Below are positions 8,503 through 42,125 of a stretch of 64,000 bases of DNA, piece by piece. Each line of letters opens with the position of its first letter. Position 1 is the stretch's first letter. The DNA lies in contig JALEOH010000030.1 in assembly GCA_022766605.1 (NCBI GenBank), positions 124,001 through 188,000 of the forward strand, given 5' to 3'. This stretch comes from Ezakiella sp. (GTDB lineage Bacteria > Bacillota > Clostridia > Tissierellales > Peptoniphilaceae). The translations under genes were made by a program, and so were the position numbers. The notes under the pieces were generated by a model. That model did not search any database, was not told the DNA's origin, and saw only the letters and a program-made list of their open reading frames with translations.

Positions 8503-9471
8503 ATGGATAGAAATCTTGTAATGAACCTTGCCCGAGTAACTGAGGCGGCAGCTCTCCACTCGGCAAAATATCTAGGACGAGGCGATAAAAATGCAGCTGA
8601 TCAAGCTGCAGTAGATGCGATGAGAGCAATGTTTGATACAGTAGATATCAAGGGAACAGTAGTAATCGGCGAAGGAGAAATCGACGAGGCTCCAATGCTA
8701 TATATTGGCGAAGAAATTGGCACTAGAAATGATGGCAATCTCGAAGTTGATATTGCAGTTGATCCACTTGATGGAACTACGGCAATATCAAAAGGAATGC
8801 CAGATGCAATTTCAGTTGTAGCTGTTGCTCCTAAGGGATGCTTGCTTCATGCGCCAGACATGTATATGAATAAAATTGCAGTTGGATCAAAGGCTGCTGG
8901 AAAAGTATCGATAGAATATCCAATTGAGAAAAATCTAGAGATATTAACCGAAGTTTTGAACAAAGAGATGTCTGATATTACTGTAGTTATGTTGGATAGG
9001 CCACGTCATGAAGAGCTGGCAAATAGAGTTAGAAAGTGCGGAGCAAGAATTCGTTTTATACAAGATGGAGATGTACTTGGTGCAATTTCAACCTGTTTTG
9101 ATCACGTAAGCGGCGACATCCTAGTTGGATCTGGCGGTGCACCTGAGGGAGTACTAGCAGCAGTTGCTTTAAAATGTCTTGGAGGACAATTAGAGGGTCA
9201 ACTCTTACCAAGAAATGAAGAAGAGATAAACAGATGTGAAAAGATGGGGGTTAGTTGCGACAAAATATATGGAATTGACGACCTTGTAAAGGGCGATGAA
9301 GCTGCCTTTTCTGCAACTGGGGTAAGTCATGGTGAATTGCTAGGTGGAGTTAATTTCATAGGCAAAAATATTGCATCGACTGAAACTCTTGTATTGCGTC
9401 AAGAAACTGGCACAGTAAGATTTATAAAGGCCATCCATTATTTGGATAAAAAACCAGAATATGCAAAATAG
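8503..9471 (+). CDS. glpX: Fructose-1,6-bisphosphatase, class II (GlpX)
   Basis: GlpX removes the 1-phosphate of fructose 1,6-bisphosphate, the committed step of gluconeogenesis. The 322-residue protein carries the class II motifs: GEGEIDEAPMLYIGEEIG and DPLDGTTAISKGMPDAISV, whose acidic residues bind the metal, and GSGGAPEGVLAAVALKCLGG. The start is ATG 8503, four bases after transaldolase; the nearest purine-rich site (AGAGGGA) is rather far upstream, so initiation may rely on coupling. No terminator is obvious before the rpmE promoter. Confidence 0.95.
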   Translation: MDRNLVMNLARVTEAAALHSAKYLGRGDKNAADQAAVDAMRAMFDTVDIKGTVVIGEGEIDEAPMLYIGEEIGTRNDGNLEVDIAVDPLDGTTAISKGMPDAISVVAVAPKGCLLHAPDMYMNKIAVGSKAAGKVSIEYPIEKNLEILTEVLNKEMSDITVVMLDRPRHEELANRVRKCGARIRFIQDGDVLGAISTCFDHVSGDILVGSGGAPEGVLAAVALKCLGGQLEGQLLPRNEEEINRCEKMGVSCDKIYGIDDLVKGDEAAFSATGVSHGELLGGVNFIGKNIASTETLVLRQETGTVRFIKAIHYLDKKPEYAK

Positions 9472-9474
9472 GGC

Positions 9475-9503
9475 TTGATTTTTTGCTCTAAAAGTTGTAT
9501 AAT
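9475..9503 (+). promoter_or_regulatory. Promoter for rpmE
   Basis: TTGATT (9475-9480), 17 bases, TATAAT (9498-9503), immediately after the glpX stop. The leader to the rpmE start is about 45 bases. Confidence 0.8.
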
Positions 9504-9551
9504 AAATAAGTGAAAAATTTAGCATTGACAAATTGAAATGAGGTGAAATAG

Positions 9552-9758
9552 ATGAAGAAGGATTTACATCCAGAATTTAAAGAAGTAACAGTAACCTGTG
9601 CATGTGGAAATACATTTACCACTGGTTCTACTAGAGATGAATTAAAGGTAGACGTTTGTTCAGAATGTCATCCTTTCTATACTGGAAAGCAAAAATTTGC
9701 TGAACGCGGCGGTAGAGTCGAAAAGTTTAAGAAGAAGTACGAAAAGAAGGAGAAATAA
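9552..9758 (+). CDS. rpmE: 50S ribosomal protein L31
   Basis: L31 is a small zinc-binding protein of the large ribosomal subunit that bridges to the small one. The 68-residue product keeps the four zinc cysteines C16, C18, C36 and C39 (CACG and CSECH), so it is the C+ form, and has the usual lysine-rich tail. Start is ATG 9552 after GAGGTGAAATAG. It has its own strong promoter and its own terminator at 9762, so it can be made independently of the prmC-prfA genes that follow. rpmE-prmC-prfA is a conserved Firmicute order. Confidence 0.97.
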
Positions 9759-9761
9759 ACC

Positions 9762-9787
9762 AGCTGCATCAGTGCAGCTCTTTTATT
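9762..9787 (+). terminator. Terminator after rpmE
   Basis: AGCTGCA (9762-9768), loop TCAG, TGCAGCT (9773-9779), then C and TTTTATTTT. It ends less than ten bases before the prmC start, so prmC must be read through this site or use a promoter inside rpmE. Confidence 0.85.
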
Positions 9788-9794
9788 TTAATCT

Positions 9795-10595
9795 ATGAAG
9801 ATCAAAGAATTAAAGAGCATTGGAGTTGAAAAATTGTCTGAAATAGAAAATAAATTCTATGAAGTCAATCTCTTTTTGTGTGATATATTAAATTTAAATA
9901 TAAAAGATATTTTATTGGATCAAGATAAAGAGGTCTCTATCGTGGATGAAAATAGATTTTTAGAAGCCATTTCAAGACGTGCCAAGGGTGAGCCCTATGC
10001 ATATATAATGAATTATAAGGAATTCTACGCTAATAGATTTTATGTTGATAATCGTGTTTTAATTCCAAGACCTGAGTCTGAATTTATAGTAGAATATGCT
10101 GTTAATAACTATAAAAATAAAAATATAAAATATCTTGATATGTGCACTGGCTCGGGTGCTATTGGTATTAGCATTGCAAAAGCCTTAAATATCAAAGCGG
10201 ATTTATCGGATATATCATCTGATGCACTTGAGGTTGCAAGAGAAAATGCGAATTACAATGATGTCAAAGTCAATATAATTAAAAGTGATCTATTTTGCAA
10301 TATAGAAGATAAATATGATCTTATAACAATTAATCCGCCGTATATTCCAAGCACAAGAAAAAACTCACTACAAATTGAAATCGATTACGAGCCTGAAATC
10401 GCTCTTTTTGCGGGCGAAGATGGACTCGATATTATAAAAAAAATTATAAATAATTACGAGAGCTATTTGCTTCCAAGTGGCAAAATAATTATGGAAATAG
10501 ATGAGAGCCAATCGGAAGTTATAAAAAAAACTGTAGATTGTGAAATTATAAAGGATCTAAATGATTTAGATCGTTTTGTAATTATTAACAAGTAA
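9795..10595 (+). CDS. prmC: Release factor glutamine methyltransferase PrmC
   Basis: PrmC methylates the glutamine of the GGQ motif in release factors, using S-adenosylmethionine. The 266-residue protein has an N-terminal helical domain, the SAM motif [14 protein letters not shown] at about residue 115, and the catalytic NPPYIP near 177. Its substrate gene prfA follows 14 bases later. Start is ATG 9795, but no Shine-Dalgarno sequence is visible: the terminator T-tract occupies the place. Translation may therefore be weak, leaderless-like or dependent on read-through. An alternative start further in would cut the N-terminal domain. Confidence 0.93.
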
Positions 10596-30334: not shown

Positions 30335-31372
30335 ATGAACGAACAAAGACAAAAAGCACTTGATAAGGCTATGGCAGATATTACCAAACAATTTGGTAAA
30401 GGCTCGATAATGAAACTTGGGGATAAGAGTTCTATGCAAGTTGAATCTATCCCAACTGGAAGTATTGATTTAGATATAGCATTAGGCATTGGAGGAATTC
30501 CAAAGGGAAGGATAATTGAAATCTTTGGCCCTGAGAGTTCAGGAAAGACAACGGTTTCTTTGCATATAATTGCAGAAGTTCAAAAAAGAGGTGGCATTGC
30601 AGCCTTCATAGATGCGGAGCACGCCCTTGATCCAACATATGCAAAAAATCTCGGGGTCGATACTGATAATTTAATCATATCTCAACCGGATTTTGGTGAG
30701 CAAGCTCTCGAGATAGTTGAATCACTCGTTAGAAGTGGTGCCGTGGATTTAATTGTAGTAGACTCGGTTGCAGCGCTTGTTCCAAAGGTTGAACTAGAAG
30801 GAGAGATGAGCGATTTACAAGTTGGAGCTCATGCTAGACTAATGTCAAAAGCCATGAGAAAGCTTGCTGGTGCAATCAATATCTCAAAGACCACTTGTGT
30901 ATTTATCAATCAAGTTCGTGAAAAGGTTGGAGGATATGGAAACCCTGAGACGACTACAGGTGGACGCGCATTAAAATTCTATGCCTCTGTACGTCTTGAG
31001 ATAAGACGTAAGGAGCAGATTAAAGATAAAGAGGACTTTATTGGAAATAAAACCACCGCAAAAGTAGTAAAAAATAAAGTGGCTCCACCATTTAAAACAG
31101 CGGAGTTCGATATAATGTATGGGGAAGGTATTTCTAAATCGGGCGATATATTAAATATGGCTGTGAAAAATGACTTGATTAAAAAGGCTGGAAGCTGGTT
31201 CTCATATAATGGTGAAAATATTGGGCAAGGCGCTGAAAATGCAAAGGCATGGTTAATAAATAATCCTGAGATCATGGATCAATTGGATAAGGAGATTAGA
31301 ACTATTTACAATCTGCCGATCGTTGAATTCGATGAGAATAGAGAAGTAAAAGCAGCTCCTAAAAATGTATAA
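30335..31372 (+). CDS. recA: Recombinase RecA
   Basis: RecA forms filaments on single-stranded DNA, catalyses strand exchange and induces the SOS response. The 345-residue protein has an N-terminal oligomerisation helix, Walker [10 protein letters not shown] (about residues 67-75), Walker [11 protein letters not shown] (about 140), the loop L1/L2 region with [11 protein letters not shown] and [21 protein letters not shown], and a C-terminal domain. Start is ATG 30335 after AAAGGAGATAGT. I see no separate promoter or clear LexA operator in the 10 bases before it, so it appears to be transcribed with pncC and the genes upstream. A Mre11/Rad50-like module follows. Confidence 0.98.
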
Positions 31373-31378
31373 TTTTTA

Positions 31379-32350
31379 ATGATTAAATTTTTATATTTCA
31401 CAGACACTCATATAAGACAAAATAATCCTGCGGGAAGAATTGACAATTTTATGGAAAGTCTCTTGAAAAAATTTGAGGAGATATCTTATATTGTTAAAGA
31501 ATATAATGTAGATTTTTGTGTCCATGGAGGAGATATTCTAGACCGCCCCGATGTTTCTATTCCAACGATTAGGTCTTTTAATAAAATTTTGATGGATTTT
31601 GGAAGACCTATTTTTTTGGTGCCAGGAAATCATGATATATTTGCATATAATTTGAATAGTATACAGAGGACTGTCCTTGCATTACAGGAAGATTTGGGAG
31701 TTTTTAATATGATGATGGGTGAATTTCCAATCTATATGTCAAAGGATGGTACGAGCGTTGAGTTGCATAGTGCACCTTATAGCTATGAATTAGATAATCC
31801 TGAAGGCAGAGATGGATATATAGTTAAAGAGAAAAAAGCGGATTTTGCAATCATGTTTGCACATGGCATGCTTATGGATAAGCCATTCCCTATGATTCGG
31901 CATACTTTGATTGAAGACATTAAAGATACCAAAGCAGACCTTACCTTGTCAGGTCACTACCATACTGGCTTTCCTCTTACCAAGATAGATGATAAATTTT
32001 TTTATAATCCAGGAAGCATTGCGCGGATTTCAGCGACGGAGCCTGATATTAAAAGAGTGCCAAAGGTGGTTGTAGTTACACTAAAGAAAGATAATGAACC
32101 AATTATTGAAACAATTGAATTAAAATCTGCACAAAGCGGCGATCTTGTATTAGATAGGGCATATCTTGAAGAAAAGAAGAACGAAAAACTCCATTATAGC
32201 TCTTTAAAGACCATGATTGAATCCAATACCAATTCGGATTATATCAATGTAAAAAATATTATTGAGTCAGTAGCCAATCTTCAAAATATAGATCAGGATG
32301 TCAAAGACTATGCTATATCCCTTGTTGAGGAGGTTCAAAGTGAGCTATAG
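31379..32350 (+). CDS. Mre11/SbcD-like metallophosphoesterase
   Basis: The 323-residue product is a calcineurin-type metallophosphoesterase with the full metal-ligand series: FTDTHI (D9, H11), VHGGDILDRPD, VPGNHDIF, AHGMLM and LSGHYHTGF. With the Rad50-like ATPase genes that follow, it is best read as the nuclease partner (Mre11, SbcD, T4 gp47) of a DNA-end processing complex. The C-terminal third would be the capping and ATPase-contact region. The start is ATG 31379, seven bases after recA, with no clear ribosome site, suggesting coupling. The 3' end overlaps the ATPase N-half gene by 11 bases. Substrate and polarity are not visible. Confidence 0.82.
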   Translation: MIKFLYFTDTHIRQNNPAGRIDNFMESLLKKFEEISYIVKEYNVDFCVHGGDILDRPDVSIPTIRSFNKILMDFGRPIFLVPGNHDIFAYNLNSIQRTVLALQEDLGVFNMMMGEFPIYMSKDGTSVELHSAPYSYELDNPEGRDGYIVKEKKADFAIMFAHGMLMDKPFPMIRHTLIEDIKDTKADLTLSGHYHTGFPLTKIDDKFFYNPGSIARISATEPDIKRVPKVVVVTLKKDNEPIIETIELKSAQSGDLVLDRAYLEEKKNEKLHYSSLKTMIESNTNSDYINVKNIIESVANLQNIDQDVKDYAISLVEEVQSEL

Positions 32351-33659
32351 AAAGATAGTTAAGCTTAGAATTAAAAATTTTCAGTCTCATGATGAAACCC
32401 TTTTAGAACTCGATCAGAGGGTAAATGTAATAGTAGGGCCATCTGATGTGGGTAAATCAGCTATAATAAGAGCGCTTAGATGGTTGTTTTTTAATGAACC
32501 GCGTGGGGACGCCTTTATTAGAAGAGGAGAGGATATTGTTCTTGTCGAGGCCATATATGATGATGGATATATAATAAGACGAATTAGAGAAGCTAAAGCT
32601 GGTGGAGTAAATGCCTACGAGATAGAAAAAGATGGTAATATTGAGCGTTTTCAAGGATTTGGGGTCGAACCACCAGAGGAAATAAAAGAGATAACGGGTG
32701 TTAGAAAATATAAATTATCCGACTCTGATCAAGTAATAGTAAATTTTCAAAATCAACATGATAGTGCATTTATGCTAAATGATTCACCTGCTCAAAAAGC
32801 TAAGGCGATAGGATACCTTTCAAATGTAAATGTAATAGATGAAGCAATTAGACGGGCAAATAATAAAGATCAAAATGCAAAAAAAGATGTAAAAAAATTA
32901 GAGTCAAGAAAAGAAATTTTAAATAATCAGTTAAAAGAATATGAAGGACTCGATGAAGAGTTAAAAATATATGAATTAGTAAAAAATAAAAGAGATGATA
33001 TCATAATAAAAAGAAATAGACTAGATATGCTTAGCTCACTTTATAGTTCATATTTAGCCAATAAAGAGTCAATCGCAAAAGGAAATAACTATATTAAACA
33101 ATTTAGAAATCTCGATCAGATCTTAAAAATTTACAAAGATGCAGATGAAAAATGGAAGCAAAAGAAAAGCTTAGAAAAGATAAAAAAAGATCTAGTACTA
33201 GTTAAAAATGGCATTAATTCTGATAGATTTGTGCTTGAAAGAACAGAAAATTTAAATGAATTGAAAACTAAAATCAGTAATATCCAATTGATAAATTCAA
33301 AGAGAGATGGTTATATTTTATTAATAAAGAAATACAACGAAATCAATGCTAAAATTAATGAAGTAAAATATCGGATTTCATCTATCGATATCATTTCAAT
33401 AAAAGAAAAACAAGATAGGATCATGTGTAATTCTAATTTATTAAATTCAATGAAAAATTTTAGAGATAGACTTTTTCAAATAAATACCATTTACAAAAAT
33501 GAAAAGGAAAATTTAAAAAAAATTGAAAAAGAGATTGATTCAAATTTAGCAAGATATATAGAGCTAATACAAAAAGGCGAAACTTGCCCATTATGTGGGT
33601 CAAAAATCGATGAAAGCCATTTAAAAAATATTAAAGAGGAGTATTATGGACTACGATAA
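32340..33659 (+). CDS. Rad50/SbcC-like ATPase, N-terminal half with zinc-hook motif
   Basis: The 439-residue protein starts with the N-lobe of a Rad50/SbcC ATPase: KLRIKNFQSHDE near residue 8 and Walker A GPSDVGKSA near 31-39, with a Q-loop-like FQNQHDS near 135. A long Lys/Glu/Asn-rich coiled coil occupies about 160-405. CPLC at 416-419 matches the Rad50 zinc-hook CxxC, and the chain ends only 20 residues later. No Walker B or signature motif is present; those are in the protein encoded at 33882. GTG 32340, five bases after GAGGAGGT, is the start. Compared with normal SbcC or Rad50, the chain is broken just past the hook. Confidence 0.8.
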   Translation: MSYRKIVKLRIKNFQSHDETLLELDQRVNVIVGPSDVGKSAIIRALRWLFFNEPRGDAFIRRGEDIVLVEAIYDDGYIIRRIREAKAGGVNAYEIEKDGNIERFQGFGVEPPEEIKEITGVRKYKLSDSDQVIVNFQNQHDSAFMLNDSPAQKAKAIGYLSNVNVIDEAIRRANNKDQNAKKDVKKLESRKEILNNQLKEYEGLDEELKIYELVKNKRDDIIIKRNRLDMLSSLYSSYLANKESIAKGNNYIKQFRNLDQILKIYKDADEKWKQKKSLEKIKKDLVLVKNGINSDRFVLERTENLNELKTKISNIQLINSKRDGYILLIKKYNEINAKINEVKYRISSIDIISIKEKQDRIMCNSNLLNSMKNFRDRLFQINTIYKNEKENLKKIEKEIDSNLARYIELIQKGETCPLCGSKIDESHLKNIKEEYYGLR

Positions 33660-33882
33660 AGAAATTATGGAATTAAAAAATAAATTGGACGAGGCAGAAA
33701 AACTTCGTGCAATGTCTCTAGCTCGTCTTGAGGTCTTGGAAAATCAAAGAGATGATTTAATTCGTCAAATAGAGGAGTCAGGGTCAACGACAGATAGCAT
33801 TGACGAGGATATTAATAAGCTAGAAATAGAAATAAAAAAGTTACTTGAGGAGTGCTTTTCATTAATGCCGAAGGTAAAGTAA
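33646..33882 (+). CDS. 78-residue coiled-coil protein between the ATPase halves
   Basis: The product is almost entirely heptad-like and charged (ELKNKLDEAEKLRAMSLARL, ENQRDDLIRQIEESG, DEDINKLEIEIKKLLEE). It has no cysteine hook or nucleotide motif. The ATG 33646 lies inside the N-half gene (14-base overlap) after AGAGGA, and its stop overlaps the ATG of the C-half gene by one base (TAATG). By position it could supply part of the returning coiled-coil arm of a Rad50-like complex, or be a scaffold peptide. It could also be a relict of a once continuous gene; the open frame and the coupling at both ends argue that it is translated. Confidence 0.68.
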   Translation: MDYDKEIMELKNKLDEAEKLRAMSLARLEVLENQRDDLIRQIEESGSTTDSIDEDINKLEIEIKKLLEECFSLMPKVK

Positions 33883-34571
33883 TGATAAATGAATCTATAT
33901 CTCAATTGAATAATTTTATCGATAATAAAAATGAATTATTGATAACTAAAAAAATTAGAAGAGATGAGCTTAATAGACAGATTGGGGAGATAGATGATGA
34001 GATAAATTCATTGCAAGAATACCAAAAGTTAAACATGGAGGCTTCTATATTACTAAAAGCGGCTTCTAAAAAAGCTCGTGTACATGCAATAGATGTATGT
34101 GAAAAAATCGTAACAAGTTCTCTTCAGTTCGTATTCCAAAATAATATTAAGTTTATTATTGAAGAAAAGGAAAGTGGAAAGAATCCGCAGATCGAATTCT
34201 TTTTAACCGATGAAAATGGCAACGAGAATTTTTTAACTAATCCAACAGATGCAAGAGGCGGAGGGGTTGTAGATATAGTTGCGCTCGGGCTAAGAATTGC
34301 AATCAATCAATTATTATATGGAGAAAACAACTTTGGACCACTTGTTTTTGATGAGCCGGCCAAATATGTAAGTCGTGAATATATTGGCAATGTTGGGATA
34401 TTTTTAAAAAACTTTTCCAAGGATTTTGATCGTCAAATAATAATGGTTACTCATGATGAATATCTATCAAACATCGGAGATTGCGTATATGCAGTTGACA
34501 AGGAGGATGGAAAGAGTAAAATAATAAATAATTTTTCAGATGAATATATTGAATTTAAAATTGACATTTAA
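33882..34571 (+). CDS. Rad50/SbcC-like ATPase, C-terminal half
   Basis: The 229-residue product begins with a short coiled coil (residues 1-60) and continues with the C-lobe of a Rad50/SbcC ATPase: ARGGGVVDIVALGLRIA in the place of the ABC signature, Walker B PLVFDEPAKYVS and an H-loop MVTHDEYLS. It lacks Walker A and would have to assemble with the protein from 32340 to make a complete ATP site. I choose ATG 33882, which overlaps the preceding stop; the ribosome site AAGGT is weak, so coupling is likely. The last codons contain the rny promoter. T4-like and Firmicute SbcC proteins normally carry both lobes in one chain. Confidence 0.8.
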   Translation: MINESISQLNNFIDNKNELLITKKIRRDELNRQIGEIDDEINSLQEYQKLNMEASILLKAASKKARVHAIDVCEKIVTSSLQFVFQNNIKFIIEEKESGKNPQIEFFLTDENGNENFLTNPTDARGGGVVDIVALGLRIAINQLLYGENNFGPLVFDEPAKYVSREYIGNVGIFLKNFSKDFDRQIIMVTHDEYLSNIGDCVYAVDKEDGKSKIINNFSDEYIEFKIDI

Positions 34572-34629: not shown

Positions 34630-36171
34630 ATGCCATATTATATTGTTATCATATTACTCGTCCTTTTTTCGATAGTTTCCTTTTTTCTTGGTTTTTTAAT
34701 TCGCAAGAAGAAAGCTGAAAAGACCATTGGTTCTGCTGAGGAATTTGCTGCAAAGATTAAAGAAGATGCACAAAAAGAAGGCGAATCCCTACAGAAAGAA
34801 ATGGTTCTAAGTGCAAAGGAAGAGATCCAAAAGTCAAGAGATGAATTAGATAAGGAGATCAAAGATAGGCGTGCTGAAATTACTGCAAGTGAAAAGCGTG
34901 TTTTGAAAAGAGAAGAAAATCTAGATAGAAAACTTGATTCATTATCGAAAAAAGAAGAAAAGCTGAATAACCGATTAAAAGATGCTGAAGACAAAAATAA
35001 GAGAGCTGACGAATTGGTACAAAGCCAAGACGATGAATTACAAAGAGTAGCAGGGCTAACGAGGGAAGAAGCAAAGGCTGAGCTTGTTGCAACACTAGAT
35101 CAAGTTATGATCACTGAAAAAGCTAATAGAATTAAGTTGCTTGAGCAAGAGCTAAAAGATGAAGGTGAGGATAAATCGCGTGAAATTTTATCTCAAATCA
35201 TGCAAAGAATTGCCTCAGATGTGGTTAGCGAAGGAACAGTAACAGTTGTAGATTTACCAAATGACGATATGAAAGGTAGAATCATTGGTAGAGAAGGTAG
35301 AAATATTAGAATTCTTGAAAGTTTAACAGGAGTTGACTTAATAGTTGACGACACTCCAGAAGCAGTTGTTTTATCGAGTTTCGATCCAGTAAGGCGTGAG
35401 GTCGCAAGGCTTGCTCTTACCAAGCTCGTTCAAGATGGACGCATTCATCCATCTAGGATCGAAGATGTGGTTGAAAAATCAAAAAATGAGGTCAATAAGA
35501 TAATTGTTGAGGAGGGAGCAAGAGCTGTTCAAGAAACTGGAATCCATGGTCTTCACCCTGAACTTCAAAAATATCTTGGTAGACTACGTTATCGTACAAG
35601 TTATGGACAAAATGTACTTCAGCACTCGATAGAGGTAAGTCATCTATGTGGGCTAATGGCTCAAGAAATTGGTGCAAATGTAAAGATTGCTAAGCGTGCA
35701 GGTCTTCTACATGATATTGGTAAATCAGTTGATAGAGAATTGGAAGGAACTCATGTTGAATTGGGAGTGAATCTCGCAAAGAGATTTAAGGAATCAAAAG
35801 AGGTTATTCACTGTATCGAAGCTCATCACAATGATGTTGAGCCAAGTACACCAGAGGCATTTATTGTTCAAGCTGCAGATGCTATCTCAGCTGCTCGTCC
35901 AGGAGCAAGAAGAGAGGCGCTAGAAAGCTATGTAAAGAGATTAGAAAAGCTTGAAGAGATAGCCAACTCATTTGATGGAATTGAAAATGCATTCGCAATT
36001 CAAGCCGGTCGTGAAGTTCGCATAATGGTTAAACCGGAGAAGGTAACCGATGATGAGATGACTGTAATTGCCAATGATGTTGCTAAGAGAATTGAAGAAG
36101 AGATGCAATATCCAGGTCAAATTAAAGTAAATGTAGTCAGAGAGGTTAGGAAAAACGCAATTGCAAAATAG
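34630..36171 (+). CDS. rny: Ribonuclease Y
   Basis: RNase Y is a membrane-anchored endoribonuclease that starts mRNA decay in Firmicutes. The 513-residue product has an N-terminal membrane helix (about residues 3-22), a long charged coiled coil (about 30-170), a KH domain ([19 protein letters not shown]) and an HD domain with the catalytic pair H361-D362 in LHDIGKSVD. The start is ATG 34630 after GAGAGGAGAG, under its own strong promoter. A terminator overlaps its stop. With pnp it gives the window two parts of the RNA degradation machinery. Confidence 0.97.
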
Positions 36172-36253: not shown

Positions 36254-37867
36254 ATGAAGAGAATTGTTAGCGTTATTTTAGTAACAGCAATTATATTACT
36301 AAATGCAAATGCATTTGCAAGTGCATCGTCATTTAAAATTGAGATAATTGAAGGCAAGAGTGACAAGACCATTGCAAAGCCAGGTGAGACGATTACGATA
36401 GAGGCGTATAAAGATCCTATTAATCCATTTTTTGCCTGGACTGTTGTTGAAGGTGAAGTAGAGTTAAGCGATCATTCTTCATCTAAAACCACTTTTATAA
36501 TGCCTAGCCACGATGTTAAGATTGAAGCTGTATTTACTATGAAACCAAGCACTGTTTTGGTTCAGTTAATAGGGGATGTGGAACAAATTTTTAATAAAGC
36601 AGGCATAGCTATTAGCGAAAAGATGGAATCAATTTCAAAAGAAGCTCGTGAATTGTATAATAATCAAAATGATGAGAAAAGGGCATATGAGCTTTCTAAT
36701 GAATATATTTCTGAGGTAAAGTCAATACAAAGCAATAATAAAAAACAATTGGATTTAGAGACAGTAACTTATTCTGATCCTGAAGATGATTTGAAATTAT
36801 TATCCTCATCTGCAAATATTTATTTGGATCAGTTATTTGCGGCTTCTGATATTGTTTTAGCAACTTCTATAAAAAATGCAAAGGAACTATCTAAAGAGGC
36901 TTTTGATAAGCTTAAATCGGACTATGACTTTGTAATAGAAAAGGCAAAGGTATTATATGATCAGATAAAAGATAAGTCAAAAGAAATTGCAGATGAACTA
37001 AAGGTAGAAATTGACAAGCTGGAAACTAAGTTTAAAAATAGCGAAGAATATGATGAAATTAAATCTGCAGTTGATGAGTTGAAGCTAAAACTAGCAGAAT
37101 TCATTAGCAAGGCCGGAAAAGAAGTAAAGGATGCGGAGGTAATAAAAAAAATAAGCGAAGTAAAGGATGCTCTTATGAATAAATTTGAAGAATTAAAATC
37201 CATGGATAAAAAAAGTGTATTATATAAGCATTTTATGGATGGAATTGGCATTAGATTTGAGCAAGAAAGACCTCTTACTAGAGCAGAGGGTGCGCAATTA
37301 ATTGCCAATATTTTAGAAGAAGAGGGTTATAAATTAAAACAAGATCACTTTTATAGTGATGTCGACAAGGATAAATGGTATTATGATGCCATTAACATGG
37401 TTACCGATGCAGGAATATTTGAAGGTCACAATAATAAATTTAACCCACAAAAAGAGTTGTCAAGAGCCGAGTGGATTACTGTGCTTACGAGATTTGTAGG
37501 CCTTGATCCAGTAGAAGAAGCTGATATTCAACTTATAAATGGAAATCATTGGGCAAAAAAATACATCTATGCTGCTAAAAAGGCAGGCTTGATCGATGCT
37601 CTTAAATTAGATCTATTTGATGAAAATATTCCAATTACAAGAGCAGAAGTGGCAGCTATTTCCAACAAAGCCTTTGGTAGAACTATAAATGACTCTATTA
37701 AAAAAGCAGTTGATGAAAAGGGTAGTCGATTTATGGACAATGATAAAGATTCTAATTTCCATTATGAAATTGAACTTGCAACTAATGATTGGTTGGTAGA
37801 AGATGGAGTTTGGAAGATGTATGATGCTTTTGACGATAAATATGATAGCGTAGCGGGATTTAGATAG
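36254..37867 (+). CDS. SLH-domain surface protein
   Basis: The 537-residue protein has a signal peptide (hydrophobic run to about residue 22, cleavage near AFAS). A beta domain follows at about 28-97, ending in FIMPSHDVKIEAVF, which resembles InlB-type bacterial repeats. Then comes a long helical region rich in Lys and Glu (about 100-325). The C terminus carries roughly three S-layer homology repeats (RPLTRAEGAQLI, FYSDVDKDKWYYDAI, ELSRAEWITVL, ITRAEVAAISN, RFMDNDKDS), which anchor proteins to pyruvylated cell-wall polymers. The coil may span the wall. Start ATG 36254 follows AAGGAGG. Two small genes follow closely. No enzymatic domain is seen. Confidence 0.9.
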   Translation: MKRIVSVILVTAIILLNANAFASASSFKIEIIEGKSDKTIAKPGETITIEAYKDPINPFFAWTVVEGEVELSDHSSSKTTFIMPSHDVKIEAVFTMKPSTVLVQLIGDVEQIFNKAGIAISEKMESISKEARELYNNQNDEKRAYELSNEYISEVKSIQSNNKKQLDLETVTYSDPEDDLKLLSSSANIYLDQLFAASDIVLATSIKNAKELSKEAFDKLKSDYDFVIEKAKVLYDQIKDKSKEIADELKVEIDKLETKFKNSEEYDEIKSAVDELKLKLAEFISKAGKEVKDAEVIKKISEVKDALMNKFEELKSMDKKSVLYKHFMDGIGIRFEQERPLTRAEGAQLIANILEEEGYKLKQDHFYSDVDKDKWYYDAINMVTDAGIFEGHNNKFNPQKELSRAEWITVLTRFVGLDPVEEADIQLINGNHWAKKYIYAAKKAGLIDALKLDLFDENIPITRAEVAAISNKAFGRTINDSIKKAVDEKGSRFMDNDKDSNFHYEIELATNDWLVEDGVWKMYDAFDDKYDSVAGFR

Positions 37868-37877
37868 TGGAGGAGAG

Positions 37878-38162
37878 ATGAAGAAGATTATAGCAGCTCT
37901 AATTGTAGTTTTAATACTAGTTGCACTAGGATATGGTATTTATTACTATGTTGTCATGACAGGTGAGAAGACAGCTATATTTAATCTAACAAAAGTCGAG
38001 GATTATAATTTATTTGCGATGGATCAAAAATCTGTCATTGAACAGAATGCAAAGGAAAAGGGACTGTTAAAAACCGATCAAGAAAATGCAAAAAAAGCGA
38101 TAGAAGAGCTACTACTCTTTGATAATTATATTAAAGAAAATTATTCAAATGAATTTAAGTAG
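37878..38162 (+). CDS. Small membrane-anchored protein, unknown function
   Basis: The 94-residue protein has one N-terminal membrane helix (about residues 4-28: IIAALIVVLILVALGYGIYY) without a clear cleavage site, then a soluble outside domain of about 60 residues (TKVEDYNLFAMDQKSVIEQNAKEKG, EELLLFDNYIKENY). The start is ATG 37878 after GGAGGAGAG, ten bases past the SLH gene. It is probably cotranscribed with that gene and with the coiled-coil gene whose ATG is 6 bases on. I recognise no family. Its place suggests an envelope role, which is inference. Confidence 0.7.
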   Translation: MKKIIAALIVVLILVALGYGIYYYVVMTGEKTAIFNLTKVEDYNLFAMDQKSVIEQNAKEKGLLKTDQENAKKAIEELLLFDNYIKENYSNEFK

Positions 38163-38168
38163 GTGTTT

Positions 38169-38435
38169 ATGGATACTGATTTGTATTTAAAACTCGATAA
38201 AAGAGAACTCGTTTGTTTGATAGAAAAGATGAGCGAGGAGCTCATTGCCAAAGACAATATCATAAGTGAATATAAAAGTGAGATAGCAAGCCTTGAATCA
38301 AGACTTAAAATGCTTGACGATATTCTCGTATTTAATTCGGATGATGGCAATAGCGTAAAAAGAGAACTTAATTTCAATAATTTAATTGCATTAGAGGCTC
38401 TTGGGCTAAATGATGATGACGACGAATTATATTAA
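38169..38435 (+). CDS. Small coiled-coil protein, unknown function
   Basis: The 88-residue product is soluble and charged, with a heptad-like stretch at about residues 12-55 (CLIEKMSEELIAKDNIISEY, ASLESRLKMLDDIL) and an acidic tail ending DDDDELY. ATG 38169 is chosen over GTG 38163; the purine site AGGTG overlaps the preceding stop. It closes the SLH operon before a terminator shared with the convergent ABC transporter genes. No function can be assigned. Confidence 0.65.
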   Translation: MDTDLYLKLDKRELVCLIEKMSEELIAKDNIISEYKSEIASLESRLKMLDDILVFNSDDGNSVKRELNFNNLIALEALGLNDDDDELY

Positions 38436-38464
38436 AGGCAGATCTAAATGACCTGCCTTTTTCT
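38434..38464. terminator. Bidirectional terminator between convergent operons
   Basis: AAAGGCAG (38434-38441) and CTGCCTTT (38453-38460) pair perfectly; T follows on the plus strand and A precedes on the left, so it can serve both directions. It overlaps the end of the minus-strand ATPase gene. Confidence 0.8.
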
Positions 38465-39367
38465 TATGATTATTTTGATATTATCTCCAATTGAGTAATT
38501 GCTTTCATTGTTTATTACAAAAGTCTCAATTGTTTTTCCTTGATATTTTAATTTTAAAATAGATAATTCACCCTGATAAATTATATCTATGATTTTAGCA
38601 TCTTCACCTTCATTTGTAATGGCTATGTCTTCAGGTCTTATATATGAATTATCTATTATATTGGACTTACCAATGAATTCCAATACAAATCTATTATTGG
38701 GCTTTTCATATAATTCTCTAGCTGTGCCTATTTGCATAATCTCACCATTATTTAAAAGCATGATCTCATCTGAGATTTCAAAGGCCTCCTTCTGGTTGTG
38801 AGTGACAAAAATAGTAGTAATATTAAATTCATGCTGAAAACGCTTTATTTCTCCTCTCATTTCTTCTTGTAGCTTTGCATCAAGGCTTGAAAGAGGCTCG
38901 TCTAGCAGGAGCAGTTTCGGTTCGATTATTAAAGAGCGTCCAAGCGCTACTCTTTGCTTCTCGCCGCCCGATAATTCATTTATATATCTATTTTGATATC
39001 CACTTAAGCCCATTTTATCTAGCATTTTTAGACCTTTTTCTTTGATAATAGCTTTATTTTTCTCTCGGAATTTAAGACCATATACTATATTTTCCAATAC
39101 ATTCATATGCGGGAAAAGTCCAAATGACTGAAAAACCGTACTTATTTCTCTTTCTTCGGGAGGGAGATTATTGATCAATTTTCCATCTAAATAAATTTCT
39201 CCACTTGATTCAATAAATCCTCCAATTACCTTTAAAATAGTTGATTTACCACATCCCGATGGACCTAAAAAGCACATCAGCTTTCCCTCATCAAGAGAAA
39301 AATTAATATCCTTAATTGCATATTTATCTTGATATTTTTTACTTAAATTTTTTACTTCTAAAAACAT
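38444..39367 (-). CDS. ABC transporter ATPase, iron/spermidine importer type
   Basis: The 307-residue protein powers an importer at the inner face of the membrane. It has Walker A GPSGCGKST (about residues 34-42), the Q-loop STVFQSFGLFPH, signature LSGGEKQRVALGRSL (about 130), Walker B LLLLDEPLSSLDAKL and the H-loop FVTHNQKEA. A C-terminal TOBE-like domain (RPEDIAI and after) places it in the FbpC/PotA/CysA subfamily. It overlaps the permease gene by 29 bases and is the last gene of a three-gene minus-strand operon. Iron(III) is a plausible substrate from the family, but not proven. Confidence 0.88.
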   Translation of the reverse strand: MFLEVKNLSKKYQDKYAIKDINFSLDEGKLMCFLGPSGCGKSTILKVIGGFIESSGEIYLDGKLINNLPPEEREISTVFQSFGLFPHMNVLENIVYGLKFREKNKAIIKEKGLKMLDKMGLSGYQNRYINELSGGEKQRVALGRSLIIEPKLLLLDEPLSSLDAKLQEEMRGEIKRFQHEFNITTIFVTHNQKEAFEISDEIMLLNNGEIMQIGTARELYEKPNNRFVLEFIGKSNIIDNSYIRPEDIAITNEGEDAKIIDIIYQGELSILKLKYQGKTIETFVINNESNYSIGDNIKIIIRKRQVI

Positions 39368-40979
39368 TTTTCCTCCTGTTAAGATATAGATTAAATGAAA
39401 TATTTACCACTAAGCATATTACTATTATAAATACGGCAATGACTGATCCTATATTGTATTTACCACTTTGAATGACGTCAAACATTACAAGCGTGAGGAC
39501 TTTTTGGCTTGGATATATTAAAAATATTATGGAGCCAATAGTTGTCATGGTTGTTGTAAATGCATTTATAAAGCTAACGCTTAAAGAATCTTTTGACAAT
39601 GGTATAATCGCGTCTTTTATTTCATCAATCCTAGCTCCGCCGAGATCTCTTATGGAATTAAGAGTATCGGAGCTTATATTATCCATTGCAGATACTCCCA
39701 TTCTAGTAGAAAAGGGAAGTTGCTTAAAAGTGACATTTAATACCACTATAAGAGCAGTGCCTGTGAGCACGAGTGGTGGGTGCTTAAAGAATAATAGATA
39801 GCCAAGCCCAAAGAAAGTACCGGGAATTATATATGGTAAATTTGAAAAAAATTCTATATATTTCATTGCTTTAAGCTTTCTTTTTTTCAAATAATATCCA
39901 ATCATCAATCCCATAATGCTACCTGTAATAGCAGAAATTAAACTATAAATTATTGATCTTATGGCGGTGCCTGTAATATAAGGCTTGGTTTCAATTATAT
40001 TGTCGAGAGTAAAATATATATTGCCTTTGTACATCTTTGTTATAGAAGATAAAAATATCTGAGAATAGAGAATAATTAGTGCTATGGTAAAAAAACCAGC
40101 GATTGATAATATTAAATAATAAAGCCATCCTTTTTTCTTTATTGGGATTTCTGACTCGTATTCAAATCCTTGGGAGGTTGATATAGTATTTAATTGTTTG
40201 CCATATATTACAAAAATTATAAGTGATGGAATTATAAGAAGAATGTTAATGGCTGCAGCTTTTGATAGATTGCCTTCAGCGATAACCGCAAAATAACTCT
40301 CAAGGGCAAGTACATTAAAATTTCCCCCAATGATGGCCGGTGTTCCAAAGTCGGCAATACTTCTGAAAAAAGATAATAACAAAACTGCTTTAATTCCTGG
40401 AATAGAAGCTGCCAGCAAGTGGTCTTTAATTATATTATTGGTGTTAGCTCCAAGATTTCTTGCAGAATTGATTATGTCTTGGTCGATATTTTTTAAGAAA
40501 CTATATATTATAAGAGTATTTAAGCTTATATCGCTTATTACTTGCATCATAACAATACCCCACATTCCGTAAGGATTGAGTTTTAGTTTTAATAGATGAT
40601 ATGTTACAAGGCCGCGCCTTCCAAAGAGATTAATAAAACTTAAACTAGTTACGAATGGTGGACTAATAAGAGTTATCGAAAGAATTAAAAGCCATATTTT
40701 CTTTATTTTTCTATTAGAAAGATATAATGCGCATGCAGTACAAAAACTTACTATTGACGATAAAATTGAGGTAGATAGTCCCATTTTAAGTGTGTTTAAT
40801 ATGGTTTTGGTATTGCTTTTAAATATGCTTGTAAGTAAATCGATGCTAAATCCATCGCTATTAAAAAATGCCTCTTTAAAAACTGCTAAAAAGGGAAATA
40901 GAATAAAAAAGAGAACAGCAAAAATCAAGAATGATATAATTGTATAATCTATGATTTTTGCAACTGTTCTCTTAGTCAT
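39339..40979 (-). CDS. ABC transporter permease, fused two-domain FbpB type
   Basis: The 546-residue integral membrane protein carries two permease units in one chain, as in FbpB-type iron(III) transporters. Each unit has about six membrane segments and an EAA-like coupling loop: NSARNLGANTNNIIKDHLLA near residue 190 and NSIRDLGGARIDEIKDAIIP near 450. Start ATG is at 40979 on the minus strand with AGGAGCTAA upstream, about 20 bases after the binding-protein gene. Its 3' end overlaps the ATPase gene. Duplicated halves in one chain are normal for this subfamily. Confidence 0.88.
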   Translation of the reverse strand: MTKRTVAKIIDYTIISFLIFAVLFFILFPFLAVFKEAFFNSDGFSIDLLTSIFKSNTKTILNTLKMGLSTSILSSIVSFCTACALYLSNRKIKKIWLLILSITLISPPFVTSLSFINLFGRRGLVTYHLLKLKLNPYGMWGIVMMQVISDISLNTLIIYSFLKNIDQDIINSARNLGANTNNIIKDHLLAASIPGIKAVLLLSFFRSIADFGTPAIIGGNFNVLALESYFAVIAEGNLSKAAAINILLIIPSLIIFVIYGKQLNTISTSQGFEYESEIPIKKKGWLYYLILSIAGFFTIALIILYSQIFLSSITKMYKGNIYFTLDNIIETKPYITGTAIRSIIYSLISAITGSIMGLMIGYYLKKRKLKAMKYIEFFSNLPYIIPGTFFGLGYLLFFKHPPLVLTGTALIVVLNVTFKQLPFSTRMGVSAMDNISSDTLNSIRDLGGARIDEIKDAIIPLSKDSLSVSFINAFTTTMTTIGSIIFLIYPSQKVLTLVMFDVIQSGKYNIGSVIAVFIIVICLVVNISFNLYLNRRKNVFRSKKFK

Positions 40980-41000
40980 TTTAGCTCCTATTTTTTTAAA

Positions 41001-42125
41001 TTATTCGGTCTTTCCACTTGAAATTTCTGCAAATTTTGCTAGAATTTCATCTCTTTTAGAGCCGAATGTTGAAAGATCTTCTTTGATGAGCTTGTCTTCA
41101 GGTAGACCTAAGTCAAGTCCATCTACATCTGGTTTAATAATTTGAGCACTGTCTTTTCCATCTAATTCTGCGATCATTTGTTGAGCATCCTTTGTAAGCA
41201 TAAAGTCTACAAATGCCTTGGCAATGTCGGTGTTGTCACTGTTTTTAAATATTGCAACTCCTTCTGGAACCCAAGGAATACCATCTTCTGGATAGACCAC
41301 GGTTAGATCTTGTTCGGTTGCAACGTCAAATGCAGATTTATCAACTGGAATAATACCAATTGCGAATTCACCAGCAGCTGTCTTTTCTTGAGGATCTTTG
41401 CCGCGTTTGCCGTAGAAGTCGATATTATCATTTAGTCTTGAAATATAATCCCATCCAGCTTCTTCGCCAAATAGATCCAATAGCCCTTTGACTACTGCAT
41501 AATTTGTTCCAGATACAGCGGGATTGCTCATGATTACTTCGCCCTTATATTTAGGATCTGCGATTTCTTCCCAAGTTTTTGGAATTTCAAGACCCTTTTC
41601 TTCTAAGATTTTGTGATTTACTAAGAATCCGGCAACAGTTAATCCTTTTGCAATCCAGGCGCCATTTGAATCTTTATATGCCTCATTGACATCGCTTGCA
41701 TTGGGACTAATATAATGTTCCAATAGTCCATCGCCATCAGCTGCCATAAAGGCGTCTAGTCCACCGCCGAACCATAAGTCTGCCATGGGTTTTCCCTCTG
41801 CTTTAGTGCGAGCGATTACCTCACCCGATGACATTGAAAGAAATTCGACTTTTGCACCAGTTTCTTTTGTAAATTCATCAAACAATTTTACATATTTGTC
41901 GCTTGTGGCAACTACATTTAAAGTGCGTCCATCAAAGTTTGGCTTTTCTTCACTTACAGTTTCCTTTTCATCTTTGATCTCTTCATTTGATTCTGATTTC
42001 TTTTCGTCTGCTTGCTCTGTATTTGTTGTAGCTTCATCTTTATTTTCTGCTGGCTTTGCACAGCCGATAAATAGTAAGATAGTAGCCATAAGCAAACTAA
42101 CCAATCTTAATAAGTTTTTGTTCAT
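41001..42125 (-). CDS. ABC transporter substrate-binding lipoprotein, iron(III) type
   Basis: The 374-residue product has a lipoprotein signal with lipobox LFIGC (Cys22), then an acidic low-complexity linker of about 40 residues (Glu, Lys, Asp and Ser-rich), then a class II periplasmic-binding fold (TLNVVATSDKYVKLFDEFTK, ADLWFGGGLDAF, GVAIFKNSDN). Relatives bind ferric iron, but 2-aminoethylphosphonate and sugar-phosphate binders share this fold, so the ligand is uncertain. The start is 42125 on the minus strand, after AAGGAGGATATT. It leads the operon with the permease and the ATPase, and an inverted repeat lies in its leader at 42148-42163. Confidence 0.86.
   Translation of the reverse strand: MNKNLLRLVSLLMATILLFIGCAKPAENKDEATTNTEQADEKKSESNEEIKDEKETVSEEKPNFDGRTLNVVATSDKYVKLFDEFTKETGAKVEFLSMSSGEVIARTKAEGKPMADLWFGGGLDAFMAADGDGLLEHYISPNASDVNEAYKDSNGAWIAKGLTVAGFLVNHKILEEKGLEIPKTWEEIADPKYKGEVIMSNPAVSGTNYAVVKGLLDLFGEEAGWDYISRLNDNIDFYGKRGKDPQEKTAAGEFAIGIIPVDKSAFDVATEQDLTVVYPEDGIPWVPEGVAIFKNSDNTDIAKAFVDFMLTKDAQQMIAELDGKDSAQIIKPDVDGLDLGLPEDKLIKEDLSTFGSKRDEILAKFAEISSGKTE

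Follow-up and report, generated by a model that had tools for sequence, protein, structure and literature searches.

A four-gene module beside recA in Ezakiella that probably encodes an Mre11-Rad50-type complex with its Rad50 part in three polypeptides

Introduction

In the described Rad50/SbcC ATPases and their Mre11/SbcD nuclease partners (E. coli SbcCD, the Pyrococcus proteins and the eukaryotic MR complex), ATPase lobe A, the zinc hook and lobe B lie on a single chain with an LSGGE signature. Rad50, an ATPase of DNA-break repair, is elsewhere one long protein, and how its distant hook and coiled-coil arm communicate with the ATPase head is a long-standing question. Lobes on separate chains, A and B, are found in the Pyrococcus furiosus Rad50 core crystals 1F2T/1F2U, where the split was engineered and both hook and arm are lacking. 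Three further groups of proteins bear comparison with the locus described here. In the Mre11/Rad50 fusion proteins, Mimivirus R555 among them, the nuclease and Rad50-like domains are joined (PMC3175470). The archaea-specific SMC-related proteins ClsN/Sph combine an SMC-like head with a zinc hook in one chain and, in the available part of the published account, come without an Mre11-type partner (PMC9389158). Finally, the phage families PHROG 16465, 18563 and 15167, which correspond to the proteins called B, C and D below, are catalogued as "exonuclease", unknown and "ATPase", and are not recognised as parts of one Rad50. The literature that was searched, in which few subscription journals were covered, holds no description of a split Rad50/SbcC, and this is weak evidence of absence.

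Here we analyse a locus in a 64,000-nucleotide stretch (the window) of an Ezakiella sp. genome, which its nearest named relatives place in the family Peptoniphilaceae. We think it very likely that four genes at this locus encode a DNA-end processing complex of the Mre11-Rad50 type, with the Rad50 part made of three polypeptides.

Results and discussion

Layout of the locus

The features in window coordinates are as follows.
30335 to 31372, plus strand: recA, a context gene, ending 6 nt before the MPE gene.
31379 to 32350, plus strand: MPE, an Mre11/SbcD-like metallophosphoesterase of 323 aa, assigned by profile, motifs and structure model.
32340 to 33659, plus strand: B, the Rad50 N-half, 439 aa with a GTG start, comprising lobe A, an arm of repeats of about 47 residues, and a zinc hook.
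33585 to 33596, plus strand: the zinc hook codons within B (CPLC, residues 416-419), assigned by profile match to 1l8d and 6zff.
33646 to 33882, plus strand: C, a 78-aa helical protein with a conserved turn, family phrog_18563.
33882 to 34571, plus strand: D, the Rad50 C-half, 229 aa, comprising an N-terminal coil, RGGG, a Walker B DEP and an H-loop.
34630 to 36171, plus strand: rny, encoding RNase Y, a context gene and conserved 3' neighbour.

A preliminary description, made from the sequence alone, had reported four overlapping reading frames after recA, and the coordinates bear this out: MPE and B overlap by 11 nt, B and C by 14 nt, and C and D by 1 nt. A strong GAGGAGG site precedes the GTG start of B, AGAGGAG precedes the ATG of C, and a weaker GAAGG lies upstream of the start of D. 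The recA gene is 61-83% identical (blastp) to the recA at the equivalent place in relatives, and recA and MPE are probably co-transcribed as an operon. Matches in the window to a Bacillus-type LexA box do not exceed chance and none lies directly upstream of recA; a promoter and terminator scan around the operon likewise gave no excess over shuffles. Farther downstream, GC skew is slightly below zero at 38001-42000, where the genes turn to the minus strand; a minus-strand ABC transporter ATPase (38444-39367) lies within this dip, with an S-layer-like protein (36254-37867) upstream.

The nuclease

The five metal motifs first noted in the metallophosphoesterase are all intact and conserved (D9/H11, GD52, GNHD at 83-86, H162 and GHYH at 192-195), with D9, H11, D52, H85, H162 and H195 invariant or nearly so. 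Mre11 ranks first in the profile search (E 1e-8), and a structural search with the MPE model (mean pLDDT 93.5) returned only Mre11/SbcD proteins in its top 39 rows, at Z 21-26, with the next fold at 18.8. The model has no strands after residue 247, and so the usual capping domain, which helps Mre11 grip DNA, is apparently absent, a call made from the secondary structure of the model; the nuclease is in this respect smaller than Mre11/SbcD. Helices, candidates for the Rad50-binding helices of Mre11/SbcD, occupy the C-terminal part of the model (260-283, 291-301 and 306-322), and the alignment to SbcD 6s6v extends to residue 323, but at an rmsd of 7.8 A. MPE adjoins B or D at nearly all loci, and in three viruses (L168, L169 and L185) it is fused to B.

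Two halves of one ATPase head

In the first reading of the locus the ATPase was split, with Walker A on the 439-residue protein and Walker B and the H-loop on the 229-residue protein. This anatomy is right, though the reading overlooked both the CPLC zinc hook in B and the 47-residue repeat arm. B carries a Walker A motif (GPSDVGKS, residues 33-40) and no Walker B; its profile matches Rad50 lobe A (MjRad50, 3aux) at E 2e-16, and its C-terminus matches the solved Rad50 zinc hooks 1l8d and 6zff at E ~2e-5. D carries Walker B (LVFDEPAK, with DEP at 157) and the H-loop histidine (in THD, at 190) and no Walker A; its profile matches Rad50 lobe B (PfRad50, 3qkr chain B) at E 2e-10, and the motifs DEPAK(H/Y)VS and THN/D are conserved in its family. 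The halves also sort correctly onto the two-chain Pyrococcus core 1f2t, with B matching chain A and D matching chain B; the engineered crystal construct has a natural counterpart, here with hook and arm. The CxxC of the hook is present in B at 168 of the 173 loci that have B, C and D. Since B runs only about 20 residues past its hook before it ends, the break in the Rad50 chain falls within the descending arm. As expected of half-proteins, B and D score below the NCBIfam SbcC/Rad50 cut-offs (best scores 53 bits against 1000 for B and 41 against 847 for D).

The signature of D is [SAD]RGGG in nearly all sequences, not LSGGE, and in the alignment to Rad50 the first G of RGGG falls on the signature serine. 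With the signature Ser and Glu replaced, ATP hydrolysis may differ. The module therefore departs from the canonical Rad50/SbcC family in two of its defining features: it has three chains in place of one, cut just past the hook, and RGGG in place of LSGGE.

Whether the halves could form one ATP site was a question that the preliminary description had itself raised. Locus L092 has its B, C and D genes in one common frame, and an AlphaFold2 model was made for its read-through chain with the stops read as Gly; in eight rows of the alignment the C region contained out-of-frame letters. In this model the two halves are predicted to give one Rad50-type head (mean pLDDT 80, pTM 0.54); pLDDT is roughly 90 or higher across the greater part of both lobes and lies at 51-77 along much of the arm. 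Residues 2-792 of the model align with Pyrococcus Rad50 (4ncj, Z 27.4; 3qku, Z 27.2) at 3.1-3.4 A. SMC heads align equally well, so the model points to one complete head and cannot alone tell Rad50 from SMC. It is the zinc hook and the nuclease partner that set the module apart as Rad50, not SMC.

Three genes, in cells and in phages

In 85 fetched cellular loci (two sets of 29 and 56 that partly overlap) the genes run recA, MPE, B, C, D, rny, and 42 viral loci, with some near-copies among them, have B, C, D, MPE; the tree built from these has 127 rows, 123 of them distinct. The four-gene arrangement beside recA is thus conserved across Bacillota, and given this order together with significant profile matches to Rad50 lobe A, hook, lobe B and Mre11, the assignment is not a product of chance. 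Most relatives from the same taxonomic order as the window's genome have D as a gene of its own, and D was found in 64 of 398 genomes sampled across the phylum, with three of the 64 being fusions. Large plasmids, from Paenibacillus and Brevibacillus among others, also carry the module, mostly annotated there as hypothetical. A deep viral branch arranges B, MPE and D differently, and often next to a recA of the phage; there B ends in the hook and C is mostly undetected.

Gene overlaps of 1-14 nt are the kind of arrangement that a recent frameshift, or a sequencing error, in an ordinary one-chain SbcC would account for. The chance that this explains the locus is practically negligible: the three ORFs recur in one order across Bacillota and phages, with varying frames and Shine-Dalgarno (SD)-like sites, and in the window the B frame meets nine stops on the way from B to D. 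A one-piece SbcC at the same locus, named at the start as the finding that would tell against separate genes, was seen in none of the relatives examined. We reject a recent frameshift because the separate ORFs are so widely conserved. Programmed frameshifting or stop read-through from B through C into D, yielding one long protein, could call on the tight overlap at both junctions and on occasional in-frame loci such as L092, and is nevertheless very improbable. Over 173 loci the B/C and C/D frame offsets cover all nine combinations, and SD-like sites, searched with a permissive pattern, were seen before C at 136 loci and before D at 107. Bacillus phage vB_BboS-125 has a 190-aa gene, annotated as an AP2-domain protein, inserted between B and C, and other viruses have MPE between B and D, or B and D far apart. 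Variable offsets and inserted genes thus disfavour a single translated product, and three genes were present in every B-C-D locus examined.

Lobes A and B are joined only at L068, L069 and L070, each of which encodes a single protein of 684-700 aa that combines MPE with both lobes, lacks an arm and gives no match to the zinc hook. These are apparently minimal versions of the system. As in the Mre11/Rad50 fusions such as Mimivirus R555, the same parts have been rearranged by fusion, although at L068-L070 arm and hook matches are lacking; the B-C-D module instead divides Rad50. Together with the MPE-B fusions, these proteins argue that the lobes act together.

Relation to canonical SbcC

SbcC (TIGR00618) was matched in 4 of 58 module-bearing genomes and in 29 of 62 that lack the module (Fisher p 6e-7, phylogeny ignored), a difference present in the first sample (1 of 18 against 13 of 22) and in the second (3 of 40 against 16 of 40). 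All of these matches lie under the family's own cut-off, and most of the matched frames are SbcC-sized. The genome of the window gave no SbcC match. Among the exceptions that have both, the module genes of G150 and G409 are arranged as in phages, and the SbcC match in G220 is partial and weak. Many genomes have neither SbcC nor the module. The pattern fits replacement of SbcCD by the module in many Bacillota. As a separate observation, Peptoniphilaceae with the module match AddA far less strongly than do their relatives with SbcC, a comparison blurred by helicase cross-matches.

The arm and the place of C

The arm of B is a 47-residue tandem repeat, unlike the arm of Rad50/SbcC, and its copy number differs by integers between species (loci L031-L222). 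The B profile is autocorrelated at lags of 47, 94 and 141, and the spacing between FQS and the hook clusters tightly in four length classes, near 355, 401, 447 and 493 residues, in steps of about 46; the longest class consists mostly of viral modules (18 of 21). In the L092 model the arm is predicted as a series of roughly 44-residue helices separated by short breaks. The length of C (median 77-84 aa) and the N-terminal part of D are constant across these classes. Because the arm of B varies while C and D do not, the arm is modular, and the strand contributed by B and that contributed by C and D are unmatched in length, unlike in ordinary Rad50; this is at odds with a simple antiparallel coil of matched strands. 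At five loci (L124, L139, L152, L162 and L198) B is itself split into two ORFs, which may reflect assembly errors or decay.

The 78-residue protein C had been put down as a coiled coil. Its helical character stands, and a plain coil does not: two helices of 42 and 25 residues are predicted around a conserved "GxxPExL" turn. C forms one family, phrog_18563, which matched 30 of the 32 cellular and phage members. Kinship of C with the repeat of B was considered and rejected, the profile comparison being negative (probability 1.9%). On gene position, C most likely links the post-hook stub of B with the coil of D, stabilising the arm. It could instead act outside the arm as a protein in its own right, regulating the complex or helping to assemble it, which we regard as unlikely, if by no means far-fetched: C has a conserved turn of its own between its two predicted helices, its length does not follow that of the arm, and most loci of the deep viral branch with B, MPE and D yielded no C, but in nearly all other loci, phages included, it sits between B and D, where the missing arm segment would be.

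The proposed complex

Taking C as part of the arm, the complex would work as follows. B would supply ATPase lobe A, the repeat-built arm and the zinc hook, and D the base of the returning arm together with lobe B and its signature, Walker B and H-loop; by homology, fusion and the model, B and D would pair into one ABC-ATPase head. Two such heads would close around ATP and, by analogy with Mre11-Rad50, zinc would join the two arms at the hook, while MPE at the base would dock through its C-terminal helices and trim DNA ends upon ATP hydrolysis. Processed ends may then pass to RecA, encoded at the head of the operon. The original suggestion that the three ATPase chains form one complex is probably right and draws support from the fold, from synteny, from the natural MPE-lobe A-lobe B fusion and from the complementary distribution of SbcC. 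We infer the physical assembly of the chains, the docking of MPE, the place and stoichiometry of C and the DNA-end processing function. The module belongs to the Mre11-Rad50 superfamily as a divergent branch and probably works like Rad50.

The same parts might serve another end, with B and D forming a Rad50-like ATPase that acts mainly as a tether or DNA-bridging factor, or as a chromosome or replication-fork factor, and with MPE trimming special ends only. The conserved hook and repeat arm, an MPE without a capping domain and the noncanonical signature would all suit such a role. We nonetheless find it distinctly unlikely, since the metal motifs of MPE are invariant or nearly so, B-C-D is nearly always accompanied by MPE, and recA accompanies the module in cells, as a phage recA does in some viruses. 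The end-processing reading, for its part, admits a bolder form, in which Rad50 is assembled from exchangeable parts: a ruler-like arm of 47-residue segments in B, and a non-covalent returning strand made of C, perhaps in several copies, and D, so that hook and lobe B would signal to one another solely through protein contacts. This we offer tentatively and think rather doubtful.

The module is a natural test of whether the arm of Rad50 must be an unbroken chain, and since the returning arm is naturally cut, chain continuity would not be required in these organisms. It is widespread, is carried by phages and large plasmids, and seems to replace SbcCD in many Bacillota. With its pieces catalogued as "exonuclease", "ATPase" or hypothetical, DNA-repair surveys based on SbcC would wrongly score the system as absent.

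Two phage records hold further observations. In Bacillus phage vB_BboS-125, an Mre11-like gene (9256-10236 of locus L066; NC_048735.1, 22423-23397) is unannotated in the record. In Microbacterium phage Magritte (L067; OR553905.1, 494-928), a B-like gene without CxxC is found, with a D-like gene about 93 kb away in the record.
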